Shown here one piece after another: positions 1-12,140 of a stretch of DNA of 12,140 nucleotides. The position numbers and the translations under genes were made by a program. Location of the stretch: positions 1-12,140 of the forward strand of contig JAJYZN010000075.1 in assembly GCA_021799915.1 (NCBI GenBank), in the 5' to 3' direction. Below the pieces are notes generated by a model. The model was not told the origin of the DNA and ran no database searches. It saw nothing but the letters and a program-made list of their open reading frames with translations. The DNA comes from Actinomycetes bacterium (GTDB lineage Bacteria; Actinomycetota; Acidimicrobiia; Acidimicrobiales; RAAP-2). Position 1 is the first letter of the stretch, and every line of letters starts with the position of its first letter.

Positions 1-1
1 C

Positions 2-661
2 TACCGCCTGGACGGGGTCACCTCGATCTCGTCTGACACCCACAAGTACGGCTACGCGCTCAAAGGGTCGTCCGTGCTCACGTTCCGCGACAAGGCGCTG
101 CGCAACGCCCAGTACTTCTACCTCACCGACTGGAGCGGGGGGAAGTACTGCTCGCCGGGAATGGAAGGCTCGCGGTCCGGCGGCCTGATCGCCGCCACGT
201 GGGCGGCGATGGTCCAGCTCGGCCGGGAGGGGTACCGACGCTACGCCCAGCAGATCTTCGAAACCGCCTCGGCGATGCAAGACGCCGTGCGAGCCCATCC
301 CGAGCTGCGCATCCTCGGTCAGCCGACGTTCCTCTTCAGCTTCACCTCCGACGACTTCGACATCTACCACGTGAACGACTTCATGCGGACCCGCGGGTGG
401 CGGTTCAACGGCCAGCAGTACCCCAACGCCCTCCACATGGCCGTCACCCGGCCCCAGACCCAAGAAGGCGTGGTCGAGGCGTTCGCAGCCGACCTGGGCG
501 AGGCCGTGGCCTACGCCCATGCCCACGCCGCCGAGAACCCCCAGTCCGGAGCCATCTACGGCGGGGTCGCCGGAGGTATGACCGCCGAGGTCGACGAGCT
601 CATCAAGATGGTGATGGCCGACATGATGGACTCCCAGCAGGCGATCCCGGATCCGCAGTGA
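2..661 (+). CDS. PLP-dependent lyase/decarboxylase, sphingosine-1-phosphate lyase-like (5' partial)
   Basis: The reading frame is open from base 2, so the N-terminus lies outside the window; about 219 residues are visible. The segment SSDTHKYGYALKGSS near the visible start is the PLP-binding signature of the group II decarboxylase / sphingosine-1-phosphate lyase fold. The Schiff-base lysine is encoded at 44-46. The following TDWSGGKYCSPGMEGSRSGG block matches the conserved TDWxGGxYxSPxxxGSRxGG region of S1P lyase-type enzymes. Members of the family cleave phosphorylated long-chain bases or decarboxylate amino acids with PLP in the cytosol; the actual substrate here is unknown. The visible C-terminal two-thirds looks intact and ends at TGA 659-661. 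The next gene starts with GTG at 658 inside a GTGA overlap, implying translational coupling. Family assignment is firm, substrate is not. Confidence 0.88.
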   Translation, partial: YRLDGVTSISSDTHKYGYALKGSSVLTFRDKALRNAQYFYLTDWSGGKYCSPGMEGSRSGGLIAATWAAMVQLGREGYRRYAQQIFETASAMQDAVRAHPELRILGQPTFLFSFTSDDFDIYHVNDFMRTRGWRFNGQQYPNALHMAVTRPQTQEGVVEAFAADLGEAVAYAHAHAAENPQSGAIYGGVAGGMTAEVDELIKMVMADMMDSQQAIPDPQ

Positions 662-1200
662 GCAGCGGTCCGGCTCCGAGCTCGGTGCACCGTCACCTGC
701 CCATGAGGCCGGCCGCCCGGGGAGCCGCTCTCGTCGGCGCGGCGGCCTACGCCGGGCTCGTCGCCACCACCAGGCCCTTCACGACGGAGGCCGACGTCGT
801 GACCGCGGTACCGCTGGCGGTGGTTGCGGTCGCTGTCGGGGTGGGCACTGTTGCCGGCCGCTCGCGGCCGGCGGTGGGGGTGGACGGAACCGAAGGGGCG
901 GACGGAACGGGTGTGGTTGGCGGAAGCGGAGTGGTTGGCGGAACCGGAGTGGTGGACGGAACCGGAGTGGTGGACGGTCGCCCGGGCTCGGTGTCGACGA
1001 GCCGGTGGCGGCCCTTCGCGTGGTGGATCGCATTGGCCGGCGCCCTTCTCGCGTGGGAGCTGTTCTGTTTCTTCGGCGGGGCGCGCCACGCCCACCCCAC
1101 GTTCAGCTCGATCTACGACATCGTTGCCCGCGCCGAAGCGGCCAAGGCGGCCGTCGTCCTCGCCTGGCTCGGGCTGGGATGGGCTCTGGTGCGATCGTGA
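658..1200 (+). CDS. Small multi-pass membrane protein with internal hexapeptide repeat
   Basis: The 180-aa protein starts at GTG 658, which overlaps the stop of the upstream lyase by 4 nt (GTGA); this coupling is the reason for the start choice. Four hydrophobic segments are visible: about residues 20-37 (GAALVGAAAYAGLVATT), 42-64 (VVTAVPLAVVAVAVGVGTVAG), 122-139 (WWIALAGALLAWELFCFF) and 160-178 (AAVVLAWLGLGWALV). Between segments two and three lies a Gly/Val-rich stretch of five six-residue repeats (GTGVVD type), encoded by an 18-bp DNA repeat. The C-terminal half resembles the next gene's product: a membrane segment, a short polar loop, then AVVLxWxxLGW. From memory this layout recalls small actinobacterial membrane proteins such as DUF6186; no function is known. 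The longer open frame running back into the lyase gene is a shadow. Confidence 0.7.
   Translation: MSSGPAPSSVHRHLPMRPAARGAALVGAAAYAGLVATTRPFTTEADVVTAVPLAVVAVAVGVGTVAGRSRPAVGVDGTEGADGTGVVGGSGVVGGTGVVDGTGVVDGRPGSVSTSRWRPFAWWIALAGALLAWELFCFFGGARHAHPTFSSIYDIVARAEAAKAAVVLAWLGLGWALVRS
886..975 (+). repeat. 18-bp tandem repeat, five copies, in-frame within membrane protein gene
   Basis: Five consecutive 18-bp units begin at 886, 904, 922, 940 and 958. The last two (GGAACCGGAGTGGTGGAC) are identical and the earlier ones diverge gradually. The unit is six codons, so copy-number change would not shift the frame; it encodes GTEGAD, GTGVVG, GSGVVG, GTGVVD, GTGVVD. It lies in the predicted loop between membrane segments two and three. 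Confidence 0.93.
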
Positions 1201-1397
1201 CCTGGCGCTCGGCGACGTTCCTCATCTGGGGCGTGCTCGGGCTCGCGACGCTCACCGTGCTCCTCTTCTCCCTGCTCGGCAAAGGGAGGCTGGCCCGTCC
1301 TGCCGAGCTCCTCGGACCGGTCCAGGCCCACCCGATGCTGCGGATCGCTGTCGTGCTGGGATGGATGTGGCTCGGCTGGCACTTCTTCGCGCGCTGA
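1197..1397 (+). CDS. Small DUF6186-like membrane protein
   Basis: The product is 66 aa if started at GTG 1197, which overlaps the previous stop as GTGA, the same coupling used one gene upstream. ATG 1179 would add six residues (MGSGAI). The protein has a hydrophobic N-terminal segment (FLIWGVLGLATLTVLLFSLL), a polar loop and a second hydrophobic segment ending in WMWLGWHFFAR. A terminal W-x-W-L-G-W-H-F motif is what I recall for small actinobacterial DUF6186 proteins; the family name is from memory and the function is unknown. It parallels the C-terminal half of the preceding gene product and may have arisen by tandem duplication. It is the last gene of the three-gene plus-strand run; a second 18-bp repeat array starts directly after its stop. 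Confidence 0.68.
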   Translation: MTWRSATFLIWGVLGLATLTVLLFSLLGKGRLARPAELLGPVQAHPMLRIAVVLGWMWLGWHFFAR

Positions 1398-1469
1398 GCG
1401 CTGCTGGCGTGTCGAGCGGTGCTGGCGCGTCGAGCGGTGCTGGCGCGTCGAGCGCTGCTGGCGTGTCGT
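1398..1469. repeat. 18-bp tandem repeat, four copies, between convergent genes
   Basis: Four 18-bp units begin at 1398, 1416, 1434 and 1452. Units 2 and 3 (GCGGTGCTGGCGCGTCGA) are identical. Units 1 and 4 share a different variant (GCGCTGCTGGCGTGTCGA, with T as the last base in unit 4), giving a mirror order A-B-B-A. The array begins at the first base after the stop of the small membrane protein and ends 28 bp before the stop of the convergent MFS gene. It is not related in sequence to the array at 886-975 although the period is the same. Confidence 0.93.
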
Positions 1470-1497
1470 CGGGCCGTTTGCGCAGGACCCCGGTCGC

Positions 1498-2868
1498 TCA
1501 ACCCGCGTGCCAGAGCTCCTCGGGCTCCCGGCCCTTGGTCTCGGGCAGCAGCAGCAGCAGCCCGGCGAAGAGCACCGCCGGGAAGAACGTGATCACCGCG
1601 GCGAACCCGGCATGGTTGCCGGTCCCGTGCACGTCAGCGAGCACACCGAACTCGAGCAGGCCGAGCACCGCCCCGAGCACGCCCGCCGCGATGTTCCAAC
1701 CGGCGACCGACGCCCGGACGCCGGTCGGGAACAGCTCGTTGGCAAGCGCTCCCCCGGCGGGAGCCAACACCGAGCCGGCTGCCACGCCCATGATGTAGCC
1801 ACCGATCAGACCTGGGACCGATCCGCTATAGGCCAGCGCGCCAAAGACAGCCATTCCGACGATCCCCGCTGCGACCGTGGGCCGCCGCCCCCAATGGTCG
1901 GCCAGCCACCGCCCGACCAGCAGGCCGCCCAGCCCGGCGATGCCGGCACCCACCACCATGCCCGAGGTCGCGATCCCCGAGACCCGTCGGATGTTCTCCG
2001 CGTAGATGAAGACCAAGCTGTTCGCAGGTCCCGTGATGATCGACACCCCGAACATGATGAGAGCGACCAGGGCAAGGCGTCCCCGGTAGGCCTTGGCCAC
2101 AGGGCCGATCACCGGACGGCGCTCTGCGGAGCTGTCGGCTTCCAAGTTGATGTAGCGAGCCGGCTCGACCACCCACCGCTGGATGAGCACGAGCAGCACC
2201 AGCGGGAGGATCGCGAGCGCGAAGATGCCGCGGAAGCCGAGCACGCTCGACGCGAGGCTGTGGATGATGGCGGTGAGGCCGGCGCCGACGCCATAGCCCG
2301 CCGCGATGAGCGCCACGGCTTTCGCCCGCTCGCCGGTCGCCGTGAGCTCGACGGCAGCCACCTGGGAGACCCCGTTGGTCGCGCTGAGCGGCGGGCGGCC
2401 GAGCGCGAAGATCGCCACGAACCACCAGTACCCCGGGCTCGCCGCCGCGACCACGGTGAGCGCCAGCCCGATCCCACAGGTGGCGAGCAGCACGGTCCTG
2501 CGGCCGAACCGGTCGGCGAGCCCGGCGAGCGGGAGTCCGCCCAGCGACGCCAGCCGGAGGATCGCGAGACCGACCCCGAGAGTCGTCCCCGACAGCCCGG
2601 CCTCGTCGGCGAACGAGGCCCCCGAGCCGATATGGCCGAACGCCTTGGCGACGCTGCCGAGAGCCGACACGGCGCCGAACTGCCCGAAGCCGGCTGCCAG
2701 CGCCAGAAGCGCGATCCCGATCACGGGCGGATCGTGCCAGCGGAACACCGACGGTGCTCCCAGCTCCGCGGACGCGACCGTCGGGATGGTGCTCGGGATC
2801 GCGCCCGAGGGCTCGGGTTGTGTCGAGCCCGGGGTCCCTGGCGACTGCCTGCTCACCGCAAGGACCAC
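1498..2868 (-). CDS. MFS transporter, sugar/metabolite porter type
   Basis: The protein is about 456 aa with roughly twelve hydrophobic segments, in the usual range for the major facilitator superfamily. The loop 2-3 signature GLADRFGRRTVLL is present and its second-half counterpart GRWLADHWGRRPT occurs mid-protein. The C-terminal PETKGREPEEL resembles the PETKG motif of sugar-porter and metabolite:H+ symporter groups. It should be a secondary transporter in the cytoplasmic membrane; the substrate is not evident. An N-terminal stretch of about 45 Pro/Ser/Thr-rich residues precedes the first membrane segment. The start is uncertain: the open frame extends to 3057 but would overlap the divergent gene, so GTG 2868 or GTG 2856 is preferred, neither with a clear Shine-Dalgarno. 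It converges on the small membrane protein genes and diverges from the DinB-fold gene, so it may be transcribed alone. Confidence 0.85.
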   Translation of the reverse strand: MVLAVSRQSPGTPGSTQPEPSGAIPSTIPTVASAELGAPSVFRWHDPPVIGIALLALAAGFGQFGAVSALGSVAKAFGHIGSGASFADEAGLSGTTLGVGLAILRLASLGGLPLAGLADRFGRRTVLLATCGIGLALTVVAAASPGYWWFVAIFALGRPPLSATNGVSQVAAVELTATGERAKAVALIAAGYGVGAGLTAIIHSLASSVLGFRGIFALAILPLVLLVLIQRWVVEPARYINLEADSSAERRPVIGPVAKAYRGRLALVALIMFGVSIITGPANSLVFIYAENIRRVSGIATSGMVVGAGIAGLGGLLVGRWLADHWGRRPTVAAGIVGMAVFGALAYSGSVPGLIGGYIMGVAAGSVLAPAGGALANELFPTGVRASVAGWNIAAGVLGAVLGLLEFGVLADVHGTGNHAGFAAVITFFPAVLFAGLLLLLPETKGREPEELWHAG

Positions 2869-2935
2869 CGCGACATGAAGAGGAAGGTTACGCCCGTCCC
2901 TCTCTGCCGGTGCGGTCGGTGCTAGGAATGGCGGG

Positions 2936-3532
2936 GTGACCGTCCCGGTGCAGGAGATCGAGGGCTGCCGCCGTGCCCACCGGGCGTTGCTCGACTCGCT
3001 CGACCACCTTACCGACGAGCAGGCGCGACAGCCGAGCCTCCTGCCTGACTGGAGCATCGGTCACCTGCTCACCCACGTGGCTCGCAACGCCGACAGTTGC
3101 ACTCGACGCGTGGAAGGTGCCATCCGTGGCGAGGTGGTGGACCAGTACCCCGGTGGCTACGCGGGCCGGGCCGCCGAGATCGCGGCGGGCGCGGGACGCA
3201 GTGCGGCCGATCTCGTGGCCGACGTGCGCGAGAGCGCGTACCGGCTGGAGTCGGCGTGGCTCTCGACCCCGGACGAAGCATGGGAGCGCCCCGGGCGCGA
3301 CGTGAGCGGGACCGAGCAGCCGGTATCGCTCACGGTCTTCCGACGCTGGCGTGAAGTCGAGGTCCACCATGTCGATCTCGGTCTCGGCTTCACGCCGGCC
3401 GACTGGTCCGGTGAACTGGTCGCGCGGTGGCTTCCTCGCCTGGTCGAGCGCTTGCCCGACCGCACCGACTCGAGGTCTTTGCTCGCCTGGCTGGTCGATC
3501 GCGGACCTGCCCCGTCGCTCGGCCCGTGGTGA
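2936..3532 (+). CDS. DinB/maleylpyruvate isomerase N-terminal domain protein (MDMPI-like)
   Basis: The 198-aa product has the MDMPI/DinB four-helix metal-binding fold. The N-terminal segment with W39, S40 and GHLLTHVARNAD (residues 42-53) carries H47. The segment WREVEVHHVDLG carries E140 and H144. The His, Glu-x3-His pattern matches the zinc ligands known for mycothiol-dependent maleylpyruvate isomerase (His52, Glu144, His148 in the corynebacterial enzyme), so the metal site looks complete. Members use mycothiol as thiol cofactor for isomerisation or thiol transfer in actinobacteria; the precise reaction here is unknown. GTG 2936 is the only start giving the conserved N-terminus. TAGGAA at 2923-2928 sits 7 nt upstream, compatible with a leaderless message, though no good -35 is seen. 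It is divergent from the MFS gene. Confidence 0.82.
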   Translation: MTVPVQEIEGCRRAHRALLDSLDHLTDEQARQPSLLPDWSIGHLLTHVARNADSCTRRVEGAIRGEVVDQYPGGYAGRAAEIAAGAGRSAADLVADVRESAYRLESAWLSTPDEAWERPGRDVSGTEQPVSLTVFRRWREVEVHHVDLGLGFTPADWSGELVARWLPRLVERLPDRTDSRSLLAWLVDRGPAPSLGPW

Positions 3533-3566
3533 TCGAGATTGCCGCAGTGCCTCGCCATCGCATACC

Positions 3567-3601
3567 GCGACAAGCGACGAGCGACAAGCGACAAGCGACA
3601 A
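3567..3601. repeat. 7-bp tandem repeat GCGACAA, five copies
   Basis: Five consecutive heptamers begin at 3567, 3574, 3581, 3588 and 3595. All read GCGACAA except the second, GCGACGA. The array lies between the DinB-fold gene and the nitronate monooxygenase promoter. No hairpin or function is apparent. Confidence 0.85.
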
Positions 3602-3651
3602 AGCGGCCTCGAGCGTGCAGTCGTGCGGCGAACGATCGGGGACTCCCTAGA

Positions 3652-3681
3652 TTGACTCATCAGTCAGTTATACGCTAGGGT
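3652..3681 (+). promoter_or_regulatory. Promoter of nitronate monooxygenase operon
   Basis: TTGACT at 3652-3657 and TAGGGT at 3676-3681 are separated by 18 bp, fitting a sigma-70-type -35 and the TANNNT -10 of actinobacteria. Transcription would start near 3688, leaving a short leader that contains GGAGGG. The operator-like sequence covers the -35 and the spacer, so a bound repressor should block polymerase. Confidence 0.7.
3653..3667 (+). promoter_or_regulatory. TetR-type operator, site A
   Basis: TGACTCATCAGTCAG contains a near-perfect 14-bp palindrome of form TGACT-S-AT-S-AGTCA. The same 15 bp occurs on the minus strand at 8109-8095, next to the tetR gene. It overlaps the -35 and spacer of the operon 1 promoter. 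Size and symmetry fit a TetR-family site; the link to the local regulator is inferred from the shared sequence and proximity. Confidence 0.75.
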
Positions 3682-3704
3682 CTCCTGCGGCAGTCGCCGC
3701 CGAT

Positions 3705-3710
3705 GGAGGG
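3705..3710 (+). promoter_or_regulatory. Ribosome binding site deciding NMO start
   Basis: GGAGGG lies directly against ATG 3711 but 6 nt before ATG 3717. Normal spacing therefore favours 3717, which also gives the family-typical N-terminus MRTRLTDLLGIEHPV. Confidence 0.75.
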
Positions 3711-3716
3711 ATGAAG

Positions 3717-4697
3717 ATGCGCACCCGTCTGACCGACCTGTTGGGGATCGAGCACCCGGTCATGCTGGCCGGGATGGGAGGAGTGTCGTACGCGCCACTC
3801 GTGGCTGCGGTCTCGGGCGCCGGGGGGTTCGGCTGCCTCGGGGCGTCGACCATGACCCCCGACACGATGGTGGCCGAGATGGCCGCGGTGAAAGAAGCGA
3901 CCGACAAGCCGTTCGGTGTCGACCTCCTCACCGCCATGCCAGGGGGGCTGACCGACCAGGTCCGGCTCATCATCGACGCCGGAGCCTCCGCGTTCGTCGC
4001 TGGTCTCGGTGTGCCGTCAGAGGTCGTCGACCTCTGCCATGACCACGGGTTGCTCGTGGTGAACATGTGCGGCAAGGTCGCCCACGCCGTCCGGGCAGTC
4101 GAAGCCGGCTGTGATCTCGTCGTGGCCCAGGGCACCGAGGCCGGTGGGCACACCGGCCAGGTGGCCACGATGCCGCTGGTACCTCAAATTGTCGACGCCG
4201 TCGGTGACCGGGTCCCGGTCGCTGCCGCCGGAGGGATCTTCGACGGACGGGGATTGGCCGCTGCCCTCGCTCTCGGGGCCGACGGGGTGTGGGTCGGGAC
4301 GCGCTTCATCGCCACGCCCGAAGCCAGGGGTGTGCCGGGGTACAAAGAGTCCCTCGTGGCGAGCGCCGAGGATGCCACGACGGTGAGCCGGGCCTACTCT
4401 GGCAAGACGATGCGGGTGATCCGCAACGAGTACACGGACTATTTCGACGCTCATCCCGAAGAGCTCGCTCGGTTCCCCGAGCAGATGGGGCGCTCTTTCA
4501 CCGACGGTGTGCTCCATCTCGGCGCCGACGACAACGCGACGGGCGTGGACCCCAAGCGCGAGTGCTACCCGGCAGGTCAAGGCGTGGGGGGGATCGACGA
4601 GCTGCTGCCGGCTGCAGAGCTGGTCGGACGGTTCGTACGCGAAGCGGAGGCTGCGCTGGCCCGCGCCGGCGACTTGGCTGGCGCGACTTCCCGATAG
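3717..4697 (+). CDS. Nitronate monooxygenase family protein (2-nitropropane dioxygenase-like)
   Basis: The 326-aa FMN-dependent TIM-barrel protein has normal family length. The N-terminal RLTDLLGIEHPVMLAGMGGVS is the typical opening. AQGTEAGGHTGQ near residue 145 is the conserved FMN/substrate segment with its His. AAGGIFDGRGLAAALALGADGVWVGTRF is the phosphate-binding end of the barrel. Characterised members oxidise alkyl nitronates to carbonyl compounds with O2; many annotated relatives sit in catabolic clusters with unknown true substrates, so the reaction here is only suggested. The start is set by GGAGGG 6 nt upstream. It is followed after 14 nt by the alpha/beta hydrolase gene, whose AGGAG overlaps the NMO stop, so the two form an operon. 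It is probably controlled through operator site A. Confidence 0.9.
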   Translation: MRTRLTDLLGIEHPVMLAGMGGVSYAPLVAAVSGAGGFGCLGASTMTPDTMVAEMAAVKEATDKPFGVDLLTAMPGGLTDQVRLIIDAGASAFVAGLGVPSEVVDLCHDHGLLVVNMCGKVAHAVRAVEAGCDLVVAQGTEAGGHTGQVATMPLVPQIVDAVGDRVPVAAAGGIFDGRGLAAALALGADGVWVGTRFIATPEARGVPGYKESLVASAEDATTVSRAYSGKTMRVIRNEYTDYFDAHPEELARFPEQMGRSFTDGVLHLGADDNATGVDPKRECYPAGQGVGGIDELLPAAELVGRFVREAEAALARAGDLAGATSR

Positions 4698-4711
4698 GAG
4701 CGCGTACCGCC

Positions 4712-5833
4712 GTGGCACGTTCCTCGATGGTGCCAGGAATGATCCGAATCGGCGGACGGCGCCTGCGCTTCGCCATCTCGTCCAATGCTGCGGGTCCCAC
4801 GGAGACGGCGACACTCGAACCCGGCCCGCTCTGGGCGGTGAACCTCCATGGCTTCTTCGCCGGTGGGGAGATGTACTCGGGAGAGAGCAATCACCTCGCG
4901 ACCAGGCTTGGGTGGCGCGTGGTGAACCCGAGCCTGCCCGGCTTCGGCGGCAGCCAGCCGCTCCCGTGGAACCTGCTCTCGATGCGAGCCCTGGCCGACG
5001 CGGTGGCCGCGTTGCTCGACCACCTCGGAGTGGAGCGGGCGGTGCTGCTCGGGCACTCCATGGGCGGTGCTGTCGCAATCGGGTTCGCAGACCGGTTCCC
5101 TGATCGGGTGCTGGGGATCGTGTACCGCGACGGCGCCGCGACCCCTCGCTGGCGAGATCGGCGCGGCATGCTGCCGGCCGCACTCGTCCCGTGGGCCCCC
5201 GACTTCGCCGGCCCGATCGACCTGCTGCTCGCTGCAGCGCTCGACGCGCCTGATCTCCTCCTCGGGAGGTTTCATCGCACGCTTCCCGGCTTGCTGCCCG
5301 ACGTACGGCGGAACATCCGCACCCTCGGTCGGACGGCCCCGGTGGCAGCGCTCCTCATGACGCTCGACATGCGCGAAGAAGTGCGCCGCCTGGCGGAGGC
5401 CGGCGACATCCCGATCGTGGCCGAATGGGGCTGCTTCGACCGGATCGCCCACGCGTGGACGGCGGCCGAGTTCTCGGAGCACGCCGGTGTGCCGGTGCAT
5501 TGGGTGCCCGGGGGGCACAGCTGGATGCTGGCACGGCCACGGAGCCAGGCTGATCTGTTCACCTCGATCGACTGGGGACGGCGCTTCGTCGCCGACGCCG
5601 AGGAGCGGAACCGCCAGCTCGCGGGGTCAGCCCGGGCCGACTCGCCCCCAGCCCAACCCAACCCAACCCAACCCGGCCCAACCCAACCCAACCCAACCCA
5701 GCCCAACCCAACCCACCCCAACCCAACCCAACCCAGCCCACCCCAGCCCAGCCCAACCCAGCCCAACCCAACCCAGCCCAGCCCAGCCCAGCCCAGCCCA
5801 GCCCAGCCCAGCCCAGCCCAGCTAACTGATTGA
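4712..5833 (+). CDS. Alpha/beta hydrolase with repeat-encoded Pro-rich C-terminal tail
   Basis: The product is 373 aa from GTG 4712, preceded by AGGAG at 4696-4700; ATG 4727 and ATG 4739 are alternatives. The core (about residues 10-310) is an alpha/beta hydrolase: oxyanion-region NLHGFFAGG (44-52), nucleophile elbow GHSMGG with Ser116, a probable acid in WGCFDRIA, and the catalytic His in PGGHSWM. It probably hydrolyses an ester, lactone or C-C bond in the cytosol; the substrate is unknown. From about residue 312 the protein becomes a 58-residue low-complexity tail of repeating PNPTQ/PSPAQ, encoded by a pentanucleotide array. Homologues normally end near residue 310, so the tail is probably an accretion, not a domain. 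The stop TGA 5831-5833 falls inside the -35 of the next promoter. Confidence 0.87.
   Translation: MARSSMVPGMIRIGGRRLRFAISSNAAGPTETATLEPGPLWAVNLHGFFAGGEMYSGESNHLATRLGWRVVNPSLPGFGGSQPLPWNLLSMRALADAVAALLDHLGVERAVLLGHSMGGAVAIGFADRFPDRVLGIVYRDGAATPRWRDRRGMLPAALVPWAPDFAGPIDLLLAAALDAPDLLLGRFHRTLPGLLPDVRRNIRTLGRTAPVAALLMTLDMREEVRRLAEAGDIPIVAEWGCFDRIAHAWTAAEFSEHAGVPVHWVPGGHSWMLARPRSQADLFTSIDWGRRFVADAEERNRQLAGSARADSPPAQPNPTQPGPTQPNPTQPNPTHPNPTQPSPPQPSPTQPNPTQPSPAQPSPAQPSPAQLTD
5647..5821. repeat. Pentanucleotide CCCA(A/G) tandem array, 35 units
   Basis: Thirty-five contiguous pentamers run without phase slip from 5647 to 5821. Nearly all are CCCAA or CCCAG; exceptions are CCCGG at 5672 and CCCAC at 5712 and 5737. 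The proximal part is mostly CCCAA and the distal part homogeneous CCCAG. Because 5 is not a multiple of 3, every frame reads the same Pro-rich peptide with no stop. The minus strand consists of GGG tracts spaced by two bases and could form G-quadruplexes. The array abuts operator site C of the next operon. Confidence 0.96.
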
Positions 5834-5845
5834 CGGATCAGTTGG
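5823..5845 (+). promoter_or_regulatory. TetR-type operator, site C (degenerate)
   Basis: TTGACGGATCAGTTGGTTAT at 5830-5849 aligns with TTGACTCATCAGTCAGTTAT at 3652-3671 in 16 of 20 positions and occupies the same position relative to a promoter. The local symmetry is AACTGAT (5824-5830) facing ATCAGTT (5837-5843). It overlaps the -35 and spacer of the alcohol dehydrogenase promoter. The match is weaker than between sites A and B. Confidence 0.6.
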
Positions 5846-5858
5846 TTATTGGTACGGT
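5830..5858 (+). promoter_or_regulatory. Promoter of alcohol dehydrogenase operon, probably leaderless
   Basis: TTGACG (5830-5835) and TACGGT (5853-5858) are spaced by 17 bp. The in-frame GTG at 5866 lies 7 nt after the -10, where transcription should begin, so the message is probably leaderless; no Shine-Dalgarno is present. The -35 overlaps the hydrolase stop codon. Confidence 0.68.
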
Positions 5859-5865
5859 CGCAACA

Positions 5866-6975
5866 GTGCCCGGATCCCAAACCTGCGCCACGCTGATCCT
5901 GGAATCACCCGAGCACCTGGTCGCGAACGAGATAGCAGTCCCCGACGTGGCCGACGACGACGCGCTCCTCCGGGTCGAGGCCTGCGGGCTCTGCGGCACC
6001 GACCACGAGCAGTATGCCGGGGTCTTGCCGGCCCCGGTCGGCGTACCCGGCCACGAGACGGTCGGGGTGATCGAGGCGATCGGCCCCCGGGCGGCAGAGC
6101 GCTGGGGCGTGGCGATCGGCCAGCGCGTCGCGGTGGAGGTGTTCCAGTCGTGCGGGCTCTGCCGTGCATGCCAGGCCGGGGACTACCGGCGCTGTGAACG
6201 CCACGGCATCGGGGACATGTACGGGTTCATCCCGGCTGACCGACCCCCTGGACTGTGGGGTGGCTATGCCCGCTTCCAGTACCTGGCACCGGACTCGAAG
6301 GTCCTGGCCGTCGACCCGGGACTCGACCCCGTCGTGGCCACCCTGTTCAACCCACTCGGGGCCGGCTTTCGATGGGGTGTGCAACTTCCCGGCACGTCGC
6401 CGGGCGATGTCGTCGCCATCCTCGGACCGGGGATCCGCGGGCTGTCGGCCGCGGCCGCGGCCCACCACGCCGGTGCAGGTTGCGTCATGGTGGTCGGCAA
6501 GGGACCAGGCGATGCGACCCGCTTGGCTCTTGCCCCGACATTCGGTGCGGCACTGGCGGTGGATTCGGCGATCGACGACCCCGTCAAGGCACTGACTGCG
6601 GCGTGCGGCACCTTGGCCGATGTCGTCGTCGACGTCACCGCCCGGGCTCCTGAGGCATTCGCGCAGGCAGTGGCCCTGGCTCGGCCTGGAGGGACCGTCG
6701 TCATCGCCGGTACGCGCGGTTCGCCGGAGACTCCGGGCTTCCATCCCGACCTCATCGTGTACAAGGAGTTGCGCCTGCTCGGCGCCCTCGGGGTCGACAC
6801 CCCGGCCTACCAGAGCGCGCTCGACCTCCTCGCCACCGGCAGGTACCCCTTCGAGAGCCTTCCCCGACGCACCGTGCCATTGGACCCGGCGTCGGTTGGC
6901 GGCTTGCTTGCAGACATGGGAGGCGCCGGCGGCGGTGAGCGTCCTGTGCACGGGGTGGTGCTCCCATGGGCGTGA
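5866..6975 (+). CDS. Zinc-dependent MDR-superfamily alcohol dehydrogenase
   Basis: The 369-aa protein is a medium-chain dehydrogenase/reductase. The catalytic zinc ligands are C43 (in CGTD) and H63-E64 (in PGHETVG). The structural zinc lobe is complete with C96, C99, C102 and C110 (CGLCRACQAGDYRRC). The Rossmann fold shows GPGIRGLSAAAAAHHAGAG as the dinucleotide-binding loop. It should oxidise an alcohol or reduce a carbonyl with NAD(P); the sequence recalls threonine/sorbitol dehydrogenase-like members, but the substrate is unknown. The frame is open back to TTG 5830, but that start would lie in the -35; GTG 5866 fits the promoter and gives a normal N-terminus (MPGSQTCATLILESPEHL). The stop overlaps the next gene, forming operon 2. 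Confidence 0.9.
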   Translation: MPGSQTCATLILESPEHLVANEIAVPDVADDDALLRVEACGLCGTDHEQYAGVLPAPVGVPGHETVGVIEAIGPRAAERWGVAIGQRVAVEVFQSCGLCRACQAGDYRRCERHGIGDMYGFIPADRPPGLWGGYARFQYLAPDSKVLAVDPGLDPVVATLFNPLGAGFRWGVQLPGTSPGDVVAILGPGIRGLSAAAAAHHAGAGCVMVVGKGPGDATRLALAPTFGAALAVDSAIDDPVKALTAACGTLADVVVDVTARAPEAFAQAVALARPGGTVVIAGTRGSPETPGFHPDLIVYKELRLLGALGVDTPAYQSALDLLATGRYPFESLPRRTVPLDPASVGGLLADMGGAGGGERPVHGVVLPWA

Positions 6976-7565
6976 GCAGCACCGACGGGAGCGAGGACGG
7001 CGGGGGGCGGATCCCCCCGCTCGGAGCTGAAGAAGCTCGGGTCCGCTCCGACGAGGTTGGCGTCCCCCACTACATGACGTCGCTCAACGTCTTTCGCGTG
7101 CTCCTGCAGAGCCCAGGAGTGGCACGGGCGTGCAACGAGCTACTCTCCGAGCTGCTCTTGCATGGCGCGCTCGATGTGCGGCTCCGAGAGCTCATCATCA
7201 TGAGGTTGGGTTGGACGACCGGTTCGGTCTACGAATGGACCCAGCACTGGCGCGTCGCCACTGACCTGGGCGTCTCGGCCGAGGACCTTCTCGGCGTTCG
7301 CACATGGGAGCGCTACCCAGGTTTCGGAGCGACCGAGCGGGCAGTGCTGGCCGCCACCGACGAGACCGTTCGCGACGGCGCAGTATCGGCCGCCACGTGG
7401 CAAGACCTGTGCGACCACGTGGCAGCAGATCCGGCCGTGCTCGTGGAGCTGCTGGCCGTGATCGGGTGCTGGCGCATGGTGGCGTCGATCCTGCGCAGCG
7501 CGCAGGTTCCACTCGAAGAGGGTGCCGCGCCGTGGCCCCCCGACGGCCTGGCGCCGCGGGGTTGA
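6966..7565 (+). CDS. Carboxymuconolactone decarboxylase (CMD)/AhpD-like family protein
   Basis: The 199-aa product has the CMD helical fold in residues 38-120. LNVFRVLLQSPGVARACNELLSELL leads into LDVRLRELIIMRLGW, then YEWTQHW with E90 and H94. In redox-active AhpD relatives a CxxC motif is present; here the corresponding region reads TGSVYEW, so peroxidase/disulfide chemistry is unlikely and a decarboxylase or unassigned role is more plausible. Such proteins are common in aromatic and terpenoid catabolic clusters. ATG 6966 lies 10 bp inside the dehydrogenase gene; GTG 6972, giving a GTGA overlap, is an equally plausible start. Both imply translational coupling with the dehydrogenase. It converges on the thioesterase gene with a 21-bp gap. 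Confidence 0.85.
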   Translation: MGVSSTDGSEDGGGRIPPLGAEEARVRSDEVGVPHYMTSLNVFRVLLQSPGVARACNELLSELLLHGALDVRLRELIIMRLGWTTGSVYEWTQHWRVATDLGVSAEDLLGVRTWERYPGFGATERAVLAATDETVRDGAVSAATWQDLCDHVAADPAVLVELLAVIGCWRMVASILRSAQVPLEEGAAPWPPDGLAPRG

Positions 7566-7586
7566 CCCGTGCGCTCGACGGACCGC

Positions 7587-8069
7587 TCAGGTGATCCGGT
7601 ACGTCTGAAGGGCCTGTGCCAGGACCCTCCCAGAGGGATCGGTAGCGGTGATCTGAGTGAAGATGAGCTCGCGGGCCCGCCGGACAGTCACCGCTCGGCA
7701 CACCAGGTCGGTCCGGTCCGAGGCAGCCAGGTACTGGACCGACATGGAGACGGTGGCAGCCCGCACCCCGCGGTCGAAGTCATGGTTCGACCATGCAGCC
7801 AGCGCCCCGGCGGTGTCGAGCATCGTCGCCACGACCCCGCCATGGTAGGTGTGACCGTCGTTCGAGAGGTCGTGACGGAACGGCAGGCGGATCTCCACCT
7901 CGTCGGGCTCGTAGTGCTCGACGACCAGGCCCAGCGTCGCCAGGTACGGCGTTCCGACGAACAACGCCGGCATGGCCTGGCGCCGTACGACCTGCTCCTC
8001 CTCGCTGAGCGCGGGAGGGCCGCCGCCGGCTCCGCTCACAGCCGCTCCGCCCCGATCGTCCGGTCCCAC
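7587..8069 (-). CDS. PaaI-type hotdog-fold acyl-CoA thioesterase
   Basis: The 160-aa product contains a hotdog domain. Its signature GHTYHGGVVATMLDTAGALAAW has HGG at 76-78 and the catalytic-type Asp85, as in PaaI/YbgC-like thioesterases, which hydrolyse aryl- or acyl-CoA thioesters in the cytosol. The start is GTG 8069: AGGAGG lies at 8081-8076 with 6-nt spacing. The longer frame to 8090 begins upstream of this site. The first 20 residues (Gly/Ala-rich) are probably disordered. It is divergent from tetR with operator site B between, so it is likely controlled by that regulator. It could release CoA from a pathway intermediate or rescue dead-end thioesters. Confidence 0.86.
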   Translation of the reverse strand: MGPDDRGGAAVSGAGGGPPALSEEEQVVRRQAMPALFVGTPYLATLGLVVEHYEPDEVEIRLPFRHDLSNDGHTYHGGVVATMLDTAGALAAWSNHDFDRGVRAATVSMSVQYLAASDRTDLVCRAVTVRRARELIFTQITATDPSGRVLAQALQTYRIT

Positions 8070-8075
8070 CTTCCA

Positions 8076-8081
8076 CCTCCT
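8076..8081 (-). promoter_or_regulatory. Ribosome binding site for thioesterase
   Basis: Perfect AGGAGG on the minus strand, 6 nt before GTG 8069. It fixes the start seven codons inside the longest open frame. Confidence 0.8.
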
Positions 8082-8094
8082 GGATCCCACTATG

Positions 8095-8109
8095 CTGACT
8101 GATGAGTCA
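8095..8109 (-). promoter_or_regulatory. TetR-type operator, site B, in thioesterase-tetR intergenic region
   Basis: The minus strand reads TGACTCATCAGTCAG, identical over 15 bp to site A. It lies about 26 bp upstream of the thioesterase start and about 155 bp upstream of the tetR start, placed to act on both divergent genes. TATGCT at 8091-8096 could be a -10 for tetR that the operator overlaps; no convincing matching -35 was found in either direction. Confidence 0.75.
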
Positions 8110-8250
8110 GTCTAGAGCAGCGCGAGCTTGTGGCAAGGCCCCGAGCCACCGTCGGCAGCCTCAACAATGAAGACAGGAAGCGCAGCGTTGTCGTGGCCGG
8201 CATCGGCGTCGGGAAGATGGGCGTGGCGAGCGCCGGGCCACAGAAGCGCC

Positions 8251-8257
8251 AGAGGAG
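8251..8257 (+). promoter_or_regulatory. Ribosome binding site for tetR
   Basis: AGAGGAG lies 7 nt before ATG 8265 and selects this start over GTG 8130 and ATG 8217 in the same open frame. Confidence 0.8.
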
Positions 8258-8264
8258 CACAGCC

Positions 8265-8894
8265 ATGCAGCGGGCGATGAACGACGAGAGCAAGGCGCAG
8301 CGGCGGACTCAGCTCCTGCAGGCCGCCAAAGACGTCTTCGCCGAGAAGGGGTACCACACAGCCACCATGGCCGACGTGGCCCGATCAGCTCAGGTCTCCT
8401 ACGGCAGCGTGTACTGGTACTTCGATTCCAAAGACGAGCTCTTCCGGGCCCTCATGTCCGACTGCGAGATGGCGTTGCGCGACCATGTCGGCACGGCGCT
8501 TCAGACGACGCCCGATACAGGTGACCCGGCGGCACCGTTCAGGGCAGCAGTCCAAGCGGCGTTCGAGTTCTTCGAAGCAGACCCGCCCCTCGTGAAGCTC
8601 CTTTTCCGCGACGCTCAAACTCTCGGTCGCGGAATCGAGACCCACTTGGTCGGGATCTACGAGGGGTTCATCTCCGACATCGAGCGGATCGTCGTACCGG
8701 CCCAGGCCGCGGGAGCGGTAATCGACGCCCCGCCACGAATGGTGGCGTTCTCGATTGCCGCCCTCGTGGGGCAGATCGCATTGCGCCGATCAATCACCGA
8801 CGACGGCTTCAATGCTCGCGAAGTCGCGGACTTTGTCGTCGACATGCTCCTGAGCGGCTTGCGGCCGCGCCGGGAACCGGTTGCTTGGGGCTAG
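8265..8894 (+). CDS. TetR/AcrR-family transcriptional regulator
   Basis: The 209-aa product, from ATG 8265 behind AGAGGAG, has the length usual for the family. The N-terminal DNA-binding domain spans residues 13-60: RRTQLLQAAKDVFAEKGY, then the helix-turn-helix TMADVARSAQVSYGSVYWYF, then KDELF. The C-terminal helical ligand-binding domain (about 80-205) has no recognised subfamily signature. Members dimerise, bind palindromic operators and release DNA when a small ligand, often a pathway substrate or acyl-CoA, binds. The operator-like sequence 155 bp upstream recurs at two nearby catabolic promoters, so this protein is the likely local repressor of the cassette and of itself. A leader of roughly 150 nt separates site B from the start. 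It converges on the minus-strand hypothetical gene. Confidence 0.92.
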   Translation: MQRAMNDESKAQRRTQLLQAAKDVFAEKGYHTATMADVARSAQVSYGSVYWYFDSKDELFRALMSDCEMALRDHVGTALQTTPDTGDPAAPFRAAVQAAFEFFEADPPLVKLLFRDAQTLGRGIETHLVGIYEGFISDIERIVVPAQAAGAVIDAPPRMVAFSIAALVGQIALRRSITDDGFNAREVADFVVDMLLSGLRPRREPVAWG

Positions 8895-8906
8895 TCGTCG
8901 AGGACA

Positions 8907-8920
8907 AGCGCTTCGGCGCT
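8907..8920. terminator. Possible short hairpin between convergent genes
   Basis: AGCGC, TTCG, GCGCT forms a 5-bp stem with a stable TTCG tetraloop 12 bp after the tetR stop and 28 bp from the convergent gene's stop. There is no T-tract, so intrinsic termination is doubtful. Confidence 0.3.
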
Positions 8921-8948
8921 CGATCCAGATTCTTGCCGCTCGTCAGGT

Positions 8949-9365
8949 TCAGGCCGTCAGTGGTTCCGCGCCCGCACCGAGCGCAGATCCGCCAGCCGGC
9001 CCCTGCCCCTCGTGTGGAACCACGTCGGCATCTGCCCCAGTGACCGCAGTGCTCGCTCCCATCAAGGCGTCGAGTTGTTGGGCCAACGCCTCGATCTCAG
9101 CTGAGCTGTACCAATTGCGGTCCAACGTCAATCCGAGGTGCCGTTGGAGTAGTGCCAACGCTTCGGGCACCGAGCTCACGTCGTCGTAGACTGCAAAAAG
9201 ACGAGCTTGGACGGCCTGGGCTGACACCATCGGTGCACCGCGCCGAATGGACTCGTCCACCAGGGCGCGAATTCGCGCGCCGGGCGAATGGGTCTCACTG
9301 ATGCCGTCGATGCTGACCGCCGGCACTCCGTCAACAATCGGATCGAATCCTCTCGTCTCGTCCAT
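8949..9365 (-). CDS. Hypothetical protein, unrecognised family
   Basis: The 138-aa product starts at ATG 9365 behind AGGAAGGTGG (9380-9371, 5-nt spacing). I do not recognise the family. The central part is predicted helical: SPGARIRALVDESIRRG, then AQAVQARLFAVYDD, PEALALLQRHLG, and SAEIEALAQQLDALM. The last 25 residues are Gly/Ala-rich and probably disordered. No signal peptide or membrane segment is seen. An upstream in-frame ATG at 9449 also has a good site (GGAGG, 5-nt spacing) and would give 166 aa with C12, C19, C22 and H28, a possible metal-binding extension. The gene lies downstream of the CLC gene on the same strand, 232 bp away, and may or may not share its transcript. The much longer open frame to 10073 is a shadow of the CLC gene. 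Confidence 0.65.
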   Translation of the reverse strand: MDETRGFDPIVDGVPAVSIDGISETHSPGARIRALVDESIRRGAPMVSAQAVQARLFAVYDDVSSVPEALALLQRHLGLTLDRNWYSSAEIEALAQQLDALMGASTAVTGADADVVPHEGQGPAGGSALGAGAEPLTA

Positions 9366-9457
9366 GTGACCCACCTTCCTCATGCATTTGTCGCAGCGCA
9401 CCCGGTCGCTATCGCACTCTGAACCCCACTCTGTCTCTTCCAACACCATCCAGGCCT

Positions 9458-9480
9458 CCGGTGTTCCGGCGACACACCGG
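9458..9480. other. GC-rich inverted repeat upstream of hypothetical gene
   Basis: CCGGTGT (9458-9464) and ACACCGG (9474-9480) form a perfect 7-bp stem with a 9-nt loop. It lies between the CLC stop and the hypothetical gene and touches the GGAGG of the upstream alternative start. No T-run follows, so a terminator is not established. Confidence 0.35.
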
Positions 9481-9597
9481 CGAACTGACCCTTTGATCCG
9501 ACCCCTTCGGCGCTGCTTGCCGGATTGGTCGGTCACCCAGCATGCAGCGGTTCGCGTCGTAGCGCTCCGAACTGGGTACCCCGGAGGTGTCTCGGCG

Positions 9598-11373
9598 TCA
9601 TGTGCCCCGATCCAAGCGACCATGACTGCTGTCATCGATTGGGGACTGATCCGTTGCTGTCGGGTCGTCGTGCGCCGCTGGTGGCGCGGCTGAAGTCCGC
9701 TCGGCAGTGGTCGCGTCAGCCGCGCCCGTCGTTGTGGTCGCAGGGGTCGCGCGGGCCTTCCGACGAGCGAGTCGTGCCGCCCAAGGACCGAGCGACGGGG
9801 CCTGGATGTCCTCATCGGCGATCCGGCGACGAAGCTCGGTGCCAAGCTGGGTCCAGTGAATGCTGCCGATGATCCTTCCGTGATCGGTGACTGCCACGCT
9901 CGGGGTGCCCGGGTCGAGCAGCATGGGCAATGCTTCAGAAAGGTAGGCCCACCGATCCACGGTTGGCTGGTCGCGATCGGCTCCAGTCGCCTCGTCAACG
10001 GGTTCCATGACGAGCCCGGCGACACGCATACGCAGTGGGTCCGTCTGGGCGTCGAAGTCGACTCGGTAGCCACGGCGACGCAGCTTGTCAGTCATGACTC
10101 GCTCATCGACTCCCAGCTCGGCGACGAGCTCGGCCACCCCCGCTGCCAGGAGCAACGGAACGAGCATGCTGTAGGCACCGGTCACCTCGGCGGCGAAAAT
10201 CGCGCCGGTGAGGAGCGCTCGAGCACTCGCACCAAAGGTGGCGCCCATGCCGACCAAAGCGAAGGCACCAGGTTGGATGTGGGCACCGGGAAACATGTGG
10301 GCAAAGCCGATTCCCACCATTTCGCCCATCGTCGCCCCGACCAGGAAGATCGGCGCCAGCGTGCCACCTGACGTGTTCGATCCCAACCCGATCCACCATG
10401 AGGTCATCTTTCCGATGAAGAGGACGGCGGCCGCTCCCAAAAGGAACCGGCCGTTGACGGCATCACTGATCGCCCAGTAGCCCACGGACAACGAGCCGGG
10501 CACGGCCAGCCCGATCGCACCGAAGCCGAGTGCGCCGACGATTGGTTGAGTCCACTCGGGGATCGGTAGCCGGCGGAAGCCGCCTTCGAGGATGAACAGT
10601 CCCCGGTTGAGCACGACGGCCAGCGCGCCGGCAGCCAGGCCCACCACCCCGAACAACGGAAGCTGGCTGACATGGAAGACAAGCGGGTGCACCACGGCAA
10701 AGAGGGGGCGAGGTTCAAGGAGCACGTCGTGGAGAGCGCCGGCGACCGAGGTGGCGAGCACGAGGGGCACCAAAGCTCGAAGTGAGCGTTCGAACAGCAA
10801 TAGCTCGAACGCGAGGATGACCGCGGCAACCGGGGTTGCAAACACCCCGGCCATGCCCGCGGCGGCACCCGTTGCAAGCAGGATCCGCCGCTCCGCCGGG
10901 CTCGCCGGCACCAGTTGGCCGATGAGGGAGCCGACCGACGCGCCCGTGACGATGATGGGCCCCTCGGCCCCGAACGGTCCACCGGTGCCCATCGCAACCG
11001 CCGCCGACAGCGGCTTGGCCAGTGCAGCACGCGGTTGGACGCGGCTGTCGCGGAACAAGATCGCCTCGAGGGACTCGGGGATACCGTGCCCTTTGATGAT
11101 CGGGCTCCAATGTGCCAGGACAATGACGACCAACGCGCCACCGACCGCTACCGCCAGAAGCACCGGCGTCGGGTGGTAGTGGCGCAGGTTCGGAAGCTGC
11201 CAGCCAAAGCGGTGCAGCAGCGCCAGATTGCTGATGAGCCCGACGAGGTGAACGACCGCGTCGGCGGCAACGCCGCCGACGCCGCCGAGCAAGACTCCGG
11301 CCACAGCCAGCACAGCCAACCGCTGCCGGGTCGTTCCAAGGCTGACGTGGGGGTCTACGCCTTTCAGATACAT
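9598..11373 (-). CDS. CLC-family chloride channel/antiporter with degenerate CBS region
   Basis: The protein is 591 aa from ATG 11373. The CLC core (about residues 15-430) has the selectivity motifs KGHGIPE (94-100, GSGIP in E. coli), GPFGAEGP (gating Glu137, GREGP in E. coli) and GSNTSGGTLAPIF (GxFxP region). FATPVAAVILAFELLLFE aligns E190 with E202 of the E. coli protein and L191 with the proton-path Glu203. It transports Cl- or another anion across the cytoplasmic membrane. Residues about 455-530 (MRVAGLVMEPV to SVAVTDHGRIIGSIHW) look like one degenerate CBS unit, and the last 50 residues are a disordered Ala/Thr-rich tail. The frame is open to 11451, but a near-perfect palindrome lies between 11381 and 11396 and favours 11373; no Shine-Dalgarno is seen there. 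Confidence 0.88.
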   Translation of the reverse strand: MYLKGVDPHVSLGTTRQRLAVLAVAGVLLGGVGGVAADAVVHLVGLISNLALLHRFGWQLPNLRHYHPTPVLLAVAVGGALVVIVLAHWSPIIKGHGIPESLEAILFRDSRVQPRAALAKPLSAAVAMGTGGPFGAEGPIIVTGASVGSLIGQLVPASPAERRILLATGAAAGMAGVFATPVAAVILAFELLLFERSLRALVPLVLATSVAGALHDVLLEPRPLFAVVHPLVFHVSQLPLFGVVGLAAGALAVVLNRGLFILEGGFRRLPIPEWTQPIVGALGFGAIGLAVPGSLSVGYWAISDAVNGRFLLGAAAVLFIGKMTSWWIGLGSNTSGGTLAPIFLVGATMGEMVGIGFAHMFPGAHIQPGAFALVGMGATFGASARALLTGAIFAAEVTGAYSMLVPLLLAAGVAELVAELGVDERVMTDKLRRRGYRVDFDAQTDPLRMRVAGLVMEPVDEATGADRDQPTVDRWAYLSEALPMLLDPGTPSVAVTDHGRIIGSIHWTQLGTELRRRIADEDIQAPSLGPWAARLARRKARATPATTTTGAADATTAERTSAAPPAAHDDPTATDQSPIDDSSHGRLDRGT

Positions 11374-11374
11374 C

Positions 11375-11418
11375 GCAACACGATATCTAAATATCGCCGA
11401 CCGATGTATATGCGTTGC
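11375..11418. promoter_or_regulatory. Nested inverted repeats upstream of CLC gene
   Basis: CGATATCTAAATATCG (11381-11396) has perfect 6-bp arms around CTAA. It is enclosed by GCAAC (11375-11379) and GTTGC (11414-11418). The minus strand TATCGT (11385-11380) could be a -10 placed 6 nt before ATG 11373, giving a leaderless message with the palindrome over the -10, as expected of a repressor site. No good -35 was found. The rest of the gap to 11656 shows no gene or clear structure. Confidence 0.45.
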
Positions 11419-11656
11419 ATTGGCCATCTGCTGGTCTCGCAGCGGTGGCACTTTCGCCCAACCGCCGGCCCACCCGTTCGACGACCTTCCGCACGAGGTC
11501 CCGGCCGGTCAGCTCGACCGCCGCGCGCGGAGTGACGAAACCGTTCGTGATCTCATCTGACCTGGTGAGGTCTTCACGTTTGGGTTTGACCAGGCATTAC
11601 GTAGCGTGATCCTGGAGCCACCCACGCGGTAAGCGCCTGGCGCCCACACGGAAGGT

Positions 11657-11998
11657 TCAGCGTCGACGCGGCGTGCGTGGATCGGCTTCGAGCACCGAGA
11701 CGCTCAGAGCCTCGATCTCACGGACGAGCGCCTTTAAGCGTCGATGGTTGTCGAACCACTCTTGGTACTCTGCGACCTGGTCGGCGCCGAGCGTGCGACT
11801 CACCGTCTTGCCGGCCACCTTGCGGCTCCATTGGAAGTAGGGACCGTGGAGGGCTGGCGGGTCCGCGTGGCAGTGGCACCCGGAGTGCGTGCACGAAAAG
11901 TGCCGCTCGGTGAGGCTGCCGGGGAGGGCGAAGCCCATTTCGCCGAGAGCCCGAGCGATCCGGGCCTGCTCATTGGCATCACTCGCACTGACGACCAC
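11657..11998 (-). CDS. Small Cys/His-rich DUF6788-like protein
   Basis: The 113-aa product starts at GTG 11998 behind GGGAAGG (12011-12005, 6-nt spacing). The core CTHSGCHCHADPP (C36, C41, C43 with H38, H42, H44) looks like a small metal-binding knuckle. HGPYFQWSRKVAGKTVSRTL follows, then an amphipathic helix with EWFDNHRRLKALVREIE. This C-x4-C-x-C, HGPY-x-W and KT-x-R order is what I recall for DUF6788 proteins, often found in variable regions of actinobacterial genomes. The function is unknown; nucleic-acid association is only a guess from the basic, Cys/His-rich character. Upstream lies the palindrome GTATATATAC and a possible divergent gene. Confidence 0.72.
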   Translation of the reverse strand: MVVSASDANEQARIARALGEMGFALPGSLTERHFSCTHSGCHCHADPPALHGPYFQWSRKVAGKTVSRTLGADQVAEYQEWFDNHRRLKALVREIEALSVSVLEADPRTPRRR

Positions 11999-12042
11999 GC
12001 TCTACCTTCCCACGAGGATCCCCCACCGGGAGGGTTGCACCC

Positions 12043-12053
12043 AGTATATATAC
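12043..12053. promoter_or_regulatory. AT-rich palindrome, possible divergent promoter
   Basis: GTATATATAC at 12044-12053 is a perfect 10-bp palindrome in GC-rich surroundings. On the minus strand TATACT (12048-12043) could serve as -10 for the DUF6788-like gene; on the plus strand TATATA (12045-12050) lies 6 nt before GTG 12057. No clear -35 is present on either side. Confidence 0.4.
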
Positions 12054-12056
12054 GGT

Positions 12057-12140
12057 GTGCTCTCCGCACAGGTGGTCGCCGTCATCGAGGGATTCACGCC
12101 GCGTCTCGTGTCGCTCGAAGCCGCCGCCTTCGCAAAGAAG
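12057..12140 (+). CDS. Possible gene running off the right edge (3' partial)
   Basis: The frame from GTG 12057 is open to the window end: 28 codons reading VLSAQVVAVIEGFTPRLVSL and then EAAAFAKK. It looks amphipathic and protein-like and could be leaderless from the palindromic AT-rich element just upstream. It is too short to identify or to be sure it is coding. Confidence 0.3.
   Translation, partial: MLSAQVVAVIEGFTPRLVSLEAAAFAKK

Follow-up and report, generated by a model that had tools for sequence, protein, structure and literature searches.

Gene cluster and putative operators

The window, by which we mean the whole stretch of 12,140 nucleotides analysed here (Actinomycetes bacterium; GTDB lineage Actinomycetota, Acidimicrobiia, Acidimicrobiales, RAAP-2; GenBank assembly GCA_021799915.1, contig JAJYZN010000075.1, positions 1 to 12,140 of the forward strand), encodes, in this order, a flavoprotein of the nitronate monooxygenase/FabK family (NMO), an alpha/beta hydrolase, a zinc-binding alcohol dehydrogenase (ADH), a carboxymuconolactone decarboxylase family protein (CMD), a thioesterase (TE) on the minus strand and a TetR-family regulator. 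Three presumed transcription regions, NMO-hydrolase, ADH-CMD and the divergent TE/tetR region, carry one site each of a putative operator, the conserved unit of which, as derived from loci with a related TetR, is the 18-bp palindrome TGAYTGAYNNRTCARTCA. All three sites recur in the closest relative found among the best 80 of 167 relatives, locus L001 of the metagenome-assembled genome (MAG) FK2.bin96, which has the same gene order and a TetR 79% identical to that of the window.

3649-3666, plus strand: putative operator 1, AGATTGACTCATCAGTCA, one mismatch to TGAYTGAYNNRTCARTCA, upstream of NMO-hydrolase; same place in L001
3652-3657, plus strand: -35-like TTGACT, inside operator 1
3676-3681, plus strand: -10-like TANNNT hexamer TAGGGT, 18 nt after TTGACT and 29 nt before the NMO start (29-nt leader)
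3711-4697, plus strand: NMO, Pfam NMO 220.6 bits
4727-5833, plus strand: alpha/beta hydrolase, Pfam Abhydrolase_1 78 bits (scanned as 4718-5833); start set by comparison with the L001 homologue
5827-5844, plus strand: putative operator 2, TGATTGACGGATCAGTTG, two mismatches, overlapping the hydrolase stop codon; conserved in L001
5830-5835, plus strand: -35-like TTGACG, inside operator 2
5853-5858, plus strand: -10-like TANNNT hexamer TACGGT, 17 nt after TTGACG and 7 nt before the ADH GTG, leaderless-type
5866-6975, plus strand: ADH, Pfam ADH_N and ADH_zinc_N (scanned as 5830-6975); start chosen from the spacing and the L001 footprint
6966-7565, plus strand: CMD, Pfam CMD 55.9 bits; 10-bp overlap with ADH
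7587-8039, minus strand: TE, hotdog-fold thioesterase, Pfam 4HBT and DUF4442 (scanned as 7587-8090); start uncertain, 8039 or 8090
8096-8113, no strand: putative operator 3, TGACTGATGAGTCAGTCT, one mismatch, between the divergent TE and tetR; conserved in L001
8265-8894, plus strand: TetR-family regulator, 209 aa, Pfam TetR_N 67.9 bits and TetR_C_24

A previous sequence-only reading of the window had proposed one operator at three places as the basis of a TetR regulon, and its sites were all located: the 15-mer TGACTCATCAGTCAG lies on the plus strand at 3653-3667 with its reverse complement at 8095-8109, comparison of the letters of 5830-5849 with those of 3652-3671 gives 16 of 20 identical positions, and the remaining site does lie between the thioesterase gene and tetR. 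The extent of the motif had to be revised, the 14-bp TGACTSATSAGTCA being replaced by the longer TGAYTGAYNNRTCARTCA because orthologous sites agree across 18 bp. Within the window, TGACTSATSAGTCA at up to three mismatches matches only these three places; shuffled sequences gave 1.09 matches on average and reached three or more in 15 of 200 cases, and first-order Markov simulation of the window produced some repeated 15-mer in 139 of 200 runs, so that the repeated 15-mer was rejected as stand-alone evidence. It is conservation elsewhere together with genome-wide rarity that raises the three sites above chance, and the comparative evidence that they are real and form one set is strong.

Conservation beside related regulators

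The alignment of TetR homologues was scanned over one genome per GTDB species, and the best 80 of the 167 relatives yielded 79 loci, of which the 72 with clear TetR relatives (1.2 Mb) were counted after L073-L079, with distant TetRs, had been dropped beforehand. At up to one mismatch, TGAYTGAYNNRTCARTCA occurs 74 times in these loci; 58 of the 72 hold a site, 55 of them within 3.6 kb upstream of tetR, as compared with a mean of 0.1 and a maximum of 3 sites in total for 300 palindromes made from the permuted half-site. For 67 of the 74 sites the centre falls in the 200 bp ahead of a called start, and such stretches make up 14.4% of the bases. Conservation at orthologous loci, which the sequence-only reading had named as a test, is thus borne out.

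The sites of L001 lie at -4473, -2473 and -122 from tetR and those of the window at -4616, -2438 and -169, and the longest conserved non-coding blocks between the two are the operators themselves (CTAGATTGA..CATCAGTCAGTTA, CAGCTAACTGATTGACGGATCAGTT and CCACTATGCTGACTGATGA.TCAGTCTAG). A copy in the regulator's own upstream region alongside copies at targets is found in the window, in L001 and in many other loci; the closest named TetR homologues are from Acidimicrobiales or Actinomycetes.

Rarity and co-occurrence with TetR

The genome of L001 (G001, 2.5 Mb) contains exactly three sites at up to one mismatch, all at this locus, which for this relative answers the concern that the motif might be frequent genome-wide. 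Ten genomes together hold 19 such sites and two of the reversed control; by coordinate comparison 16 of the 19 fall in the tetR stretch, and the other three lie before a gene with NMO-like first residues (L161), before a MiaE_2-like gene (L162) and 54 bp short of the end of a contig (L160). In a set of 198 genomes from the order of L001's genome, with TetR counted at E ≤1e-40, TetR is present in 26 genomes and the site in 43, namely in 22 of the 26 genomes with TetR vs 21 of the 172 without (Fisher p 1e-13). In a mycobacterial set of 198 genomes (genus of Mycobacterium kyorinense) all 28 TetR-bearing genomes hold a site vs 44 of 170 without TetR (p 8e-15). Where the distance was counted, that is in 20 of the 22 and 23 of the 28 genomes (G131, G162 and five mycobacterial genomes being left out), tetR has a site no more than 5 kb away in 17 of 20 order-set and in 23 of 23 mycobacterial genomes.

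That the regulon is local, as the sequence-only reading had it, applies to L001's genome and to 19 of 23 TetR-bearing mycobacterial genomes, where the sites fall within about 10.5 kb, and not to seven order-set genomes with 4-8 sites each; as these are mostly spread over several contigs, the regulon looks multi-locus there.

Most, not all, of the sites in TetR-less genomes look like background, because the reversed control also hits 9 of 198 order-set and 26 of 198 mycobacterial genomes. Thirteen sites were fetched from TetR-less genomes; five are inside called genes, and none of the 13 has a target matching the NMO, hydrolase, ADH, CMD, TE or TetR of the window. Separately, a near-site, TGTCTGATCGATCAGTCA, is common to the TetR-less mycobacterial genomes G205, G266, G306 and G334 and occurs with one change in G240 and G283, a distribution more suggestive of a further conserved element than of background.

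Position of the operator within promoters

The placement of two sites over the -35/spacer region of the NMO-hydrolase and ADH-CMD promoters, also claimed earlier, holds, since the -35-like TTGACT and TTGACG lie inside the operators and are followed by a TANNNT hexamer after 18 and 17 nt respectively. A strict sigma-70 scan of 3500-8300 did not list these two promoter pairs and returned a single hit, on the minus strand at 8136-8109, the -10 of which overlaps the edge of site 3; given this pair, the third operator would cover the -10 end and the start point.

Among distinct upstream regions with the site centre 28-32 bp from the called start, TANNNT lies between -15 and -5 in 45 of 47 (shuffled mean 3.55), and the ADH gene of the window shares this geometry. 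In such tightly spaced sites the -35 comes from one half of the operator, TGATTGAC (or TGATTGAT), and they therefore look like leaderless promoters with the -35 within the operator. Since the site is symmetric, one palindrome can provide two -35 elements: ten mycobacterial loci (L016, L020, L027, L030, L031, L037, L042, L052, L053 and L072) have a single palindrome with two divergent starts 29-32 bp off, and TANNNT is present on both sides in 14 of the 37 sites with two divergent called genes. An operator over the -35 would imply repression.

The regulator and known systems

TetR-type regulators that respond to acyl compounds are well known. The TetR of the window is a TetR/AcrR family protein by both Pfam models (TetR_N, the N-terminal helix-turn-helix, 67.9 bits, cut-off 24; TetR_C_24 28.4 bits, cut-off 26.4), and its structure model (mean pLDDT 79.4) has nine helices with an all-helical C-terminal domain. 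Among the families listed by VIA-align, which the structure comparison covered, the modelled fold is close to that of Bacillus FadR, the best structural matches being the FadR entries 3whb, 3whc, 5gp9, 5gpa and 5gpc at 17-20% identity, of which 3whc contains stearoyl-CoA. Bacillus FadR is a TetR-family acyl-CoA-dependent regulator, as is proposed here for the TetR of the window, with a gene set that differs from the present cluster. Its operator is reportedly the 18-bp TGAATGANTANTCATTCA (letters unconfirmed); measured against this box, the window operator would be of equal length, share the TGAnTGA framework and have C/T for A at the fourth base.

By sequence, the top PDB match is FasR of Mycobacterium tuberculosis (52.7 bits; 67.4 bits with a profile), described in PMC7382501 as an activator of lipid synthesis that senses long acyl-CoA; the recognition helices differ (SYGSVYWYF in the window TetR vs SKPVLYQHF). 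According to PMC6449355, FadRSa of Sulfolobus acidocaldarius is a TetR repressor with few genomic sites and a DNA complex undone by acyl-CoA, whose DNA contacts Tyr47, Gly48, Leu49, Tyr51 and Phe52 resemble Y46-G47-S48-V49-Y50-W51 of the window TetR; it differs in being archaeal, in its 16-bp motif and in having 17% identity to the window TetR. The mycobacterial BkaR (Rv2506), as described in PMC3920632, is a TetR that controls its own expression, has a palindromic motif and is paired with a divergent operon, features to which the predicted autoregulation, the palindromic operator and the divergent gene of the window correspond; its motif GTTA(N)T(N4)A(N)TAAC and its branched-chain keto-acid genes set it apart. 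No description of the present regulon was recognized in the partial literature searched, whose coverage mostly lies outside subscription journals.

Predicted targets

Targets were counted for 111 distinct sites (from the 72 loci, the window and additionally retrieved distal stretches; 117 before overlapping stretches such as L002/L137, L043/L155, L049/L168 and L070/L170 were deduplicated), which have 131 called targets within 400 bp. The gene calls come from a home-made codon scorer that gives wrong frames in some GC-rich loci (e.g. L010, L029), and for this reason target names rest on homology or Pfam/NCBIfam, and for any family other than those of the window a single scanned member underlies the name. 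Most frequent are NMO (39), thioesterase (18), TetR (13) and ADH (10), followed by acyl-CoA dehydrogenase (6) and SCP2 (4); thiolase-like proteins, LLM flavin enzymes, alpha/beta hydrolases and an unscanned 246-aa protein account for three each, PhyH, aldehyde dehydrogenase, amidohydrolase and MiaE_2-like proteins for two each, and single targets include a P450, an acyl-CoA ligase, an AKR and an arylsulfatase-like protein. Many predicted targets are thus acyl-CoA/lipid enzymes. A TE is present in 29 of the 72 loci.

In the window, TE scores 51.7 bits with TIGR00369 (cut-off 36.6), and NMO, which scores 217.8 bits with NCBIfam FabK and so stays below the cut-off of 453.1, has FabK-type enoyl-ACP (acyl carrier protein) reductases as best PDB matches. 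The mycobacterial NMO adjoining tetR (e.g. L015, L023, L046) is 34-38% identical to it (45% over a fragment in L048) and the NMO of 13 other loci 68-88%, so by sequence the mycobacterial protein is a different subfamily in the same place and with the same operator. TetR-bearing mycobacteria also have distal sites before a fatty-acid-AMP ligase (identified by scanning in L187, with a look-alike in L188) and before genes 73% identical to a polyketide synthase (PKS; L189 and L190), for which the neighbouring PKS of L046 was scanned.

Three observations concern neighbours of the TetR loci. A gene of about 2,100 codons lies beside tetR at L046:1164-7469, L015:763-7050 and L039:849-7100 and is a type I PKS in the scanned L046. 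A protein of about 320-380 aa starting like RLEVWYAT..DPATG recurs (L154:10941-11969, L137:6048-6998, L195:2990-3940, L008:3196-4332); its one scanned member, that of L154, has no Pfam or NCBIfam match. MiaE_2-like (ferritin-like) proteins occur near TetR or the operator at L008:2519-3184, L137:7117-7836, L154:7889-8560, L018:8606-9088 and L162:2880-3626, assigned by scanning in L008 and L162 and by similar first residues in the other three.

Proposed regulation and alternatives

The rarity of the operator in G001 and its conservation at orthologous loci support one operator that defines a TetR regulon in the window. We favour, with a probability of roughly 0.8, an autoregulated FadR-like TetR repressor that would act through this 18-bp operator at three places and be released by an acyl-CoA. 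We infer that a TetR dimer binds TGAYTGAYNNRTCARTCA at the promoters of NMO-hydrolase and ADH-CMD, where it would cover the -35 and block RNA polymerase, and also in the divergent TE/tetR region. It would be loosened from the DNA by a small ligand, for which an acyl-CoA derived from the substrate is the likeliest candidate, so that all units are switched on together. The inducer is probably an acyl-CoA, and the enzymes would act on activated acyl compounds. The same switch is found next to a regulator of the same kind in many related bacteria, mycobacteria among them, and there it probably controls genes for the processing of fatty-acid-like molecules.

A number of observations weigh against this proposal. 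Fourteen of the 72 TetR loci lack a site even when one mismatch is allowed (L005, L007, L009, L028, L048, L056, L058, L061, L062, L065, L066, L068, L069 and L071); L005 and L007 have one site each at two mismatches, and less than 750 bp of upstream sequence is present in L007, L028 and L048. The 72 loci in which the motif was counted are also those from which it had been built. Four of the 26 TetR genomes of the order set lack a site, at least one site is present in 21 of 172 and 44 of 170 of the TetR-less genomes counted above, and the mycobacterial share exceeds the reversed control. Around site 3 of the window, neither strand has TANNNT where the spacing predicts it, and the geometry is found in only 61 of 137 distinct site-target pairs. 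Nine of the 111 sites lie inside called genes and nine have no called gene within 400 bp; the amidohydrolase, the arylsulfatase-like protein and the 246-aa protein are not an easy fit for a lipid theme. The structural lead of FadR over other TetRs is modest, and the protein was rejected as a member of either NCBIfam family, scoring 51.1 bits against a cut-off of 200 for FadR and 73.4 bits against 330 for FasR.

The same operator and TetR might answer to a ligand other than acyl-CoA, such as a free alcohol, aldehyde, ketone or other substrate of ADH, NMO or the hydrolase; we consider this somewhat unlikely, as the best structural matches are FadR, including the stearoyl-CoA complex, and as thioesterases, acyl-CoA dehydrogenases, thiolase-like proteins and acyl ligases are repeatedly among the targets. 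It is quite improbable that TetR acts as an activator in the manner of FasR, its top PDB match by sequence, which PMC7382501 terms an activator, since in the tightly spaced group the operator over the -35 takes a repressor position and the recognition helix is unlike that of FasR. Even less probable is that the sites belong to another regulator with TetR as a bystander: their presence in some TetR-less genomes would agree with it, but TetR is favoured by its presence in the same genomes and at the same loci as the sites and by the operator copy ahead of its own gene, as well as by the 13 sites fetched from TetR-less genomes, with five inside called genes and none before a window-type target. 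A chance palindrome or plain promoter similarity could be suspected from the left half of the operator, which resembles a -35, and from repeated 15-mers being common by chance at the composition of the window; we regard it as already refuted by the near absence of sites for permuted palindromes and by the three-site footprint kept in L001.

Starting again from the acyl-CoA-released repressor, a tentative extension, which we hold to be somewhat less than an even chance, is an undescribed acyl-CoA-responsive regulon of Actinomycetota (Acidimicrobiales-type bacteria and a mycobacterial subset) with a palindrome doubling as leaderless -35. It would control a new oxidative acyl pathway built on the FabK/NMO-like flavoprotein, ADH, CMD, hydrolase and thioesterase, and in the ten mycobacterial loci the half-sites would be the -35s of two divergent leaderless-type promoters. 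If so, the operator before a fatty-acid-AMP ligase and a type I PKS in some mycobacteria would tie the switch to synthesis or turnover of complex lipids, and enzyme families of unclear role (NMO/FabK-like, CMD, MiaE_2-like and a family of about 340 aa) would be linked to acyl metabolism. A local hint becomes a testable regulon spanning distant actinobacterial groups, of which the 18-bp operator can be used to find further members and, after identification of the ligand, might be employed as a sensor component.

Surrounding sequence

A long CCCAA/CCCAG run at 5648-5822 is translated within the last part of the hydrolase gene, so that the protein has a QPNPT-rich C-terminal tail, which is absent from the L001 homologue (310 aa as called). 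The cluster is flanked by an MDMPI_N (mycothiol-dependent) gene and an MFS transporter (window 2936-3532), without an operator of their own and kept in L001. Between the MDMPI-like gene and operator 1, a short tandem repeat of GACAAGC-like 7-bp units occupies 3571-3603, and two further short tandem-repeat clusters with 18-bp spacing are located at 939-977 and 1396-1468, in or near small predicted open reading frames.

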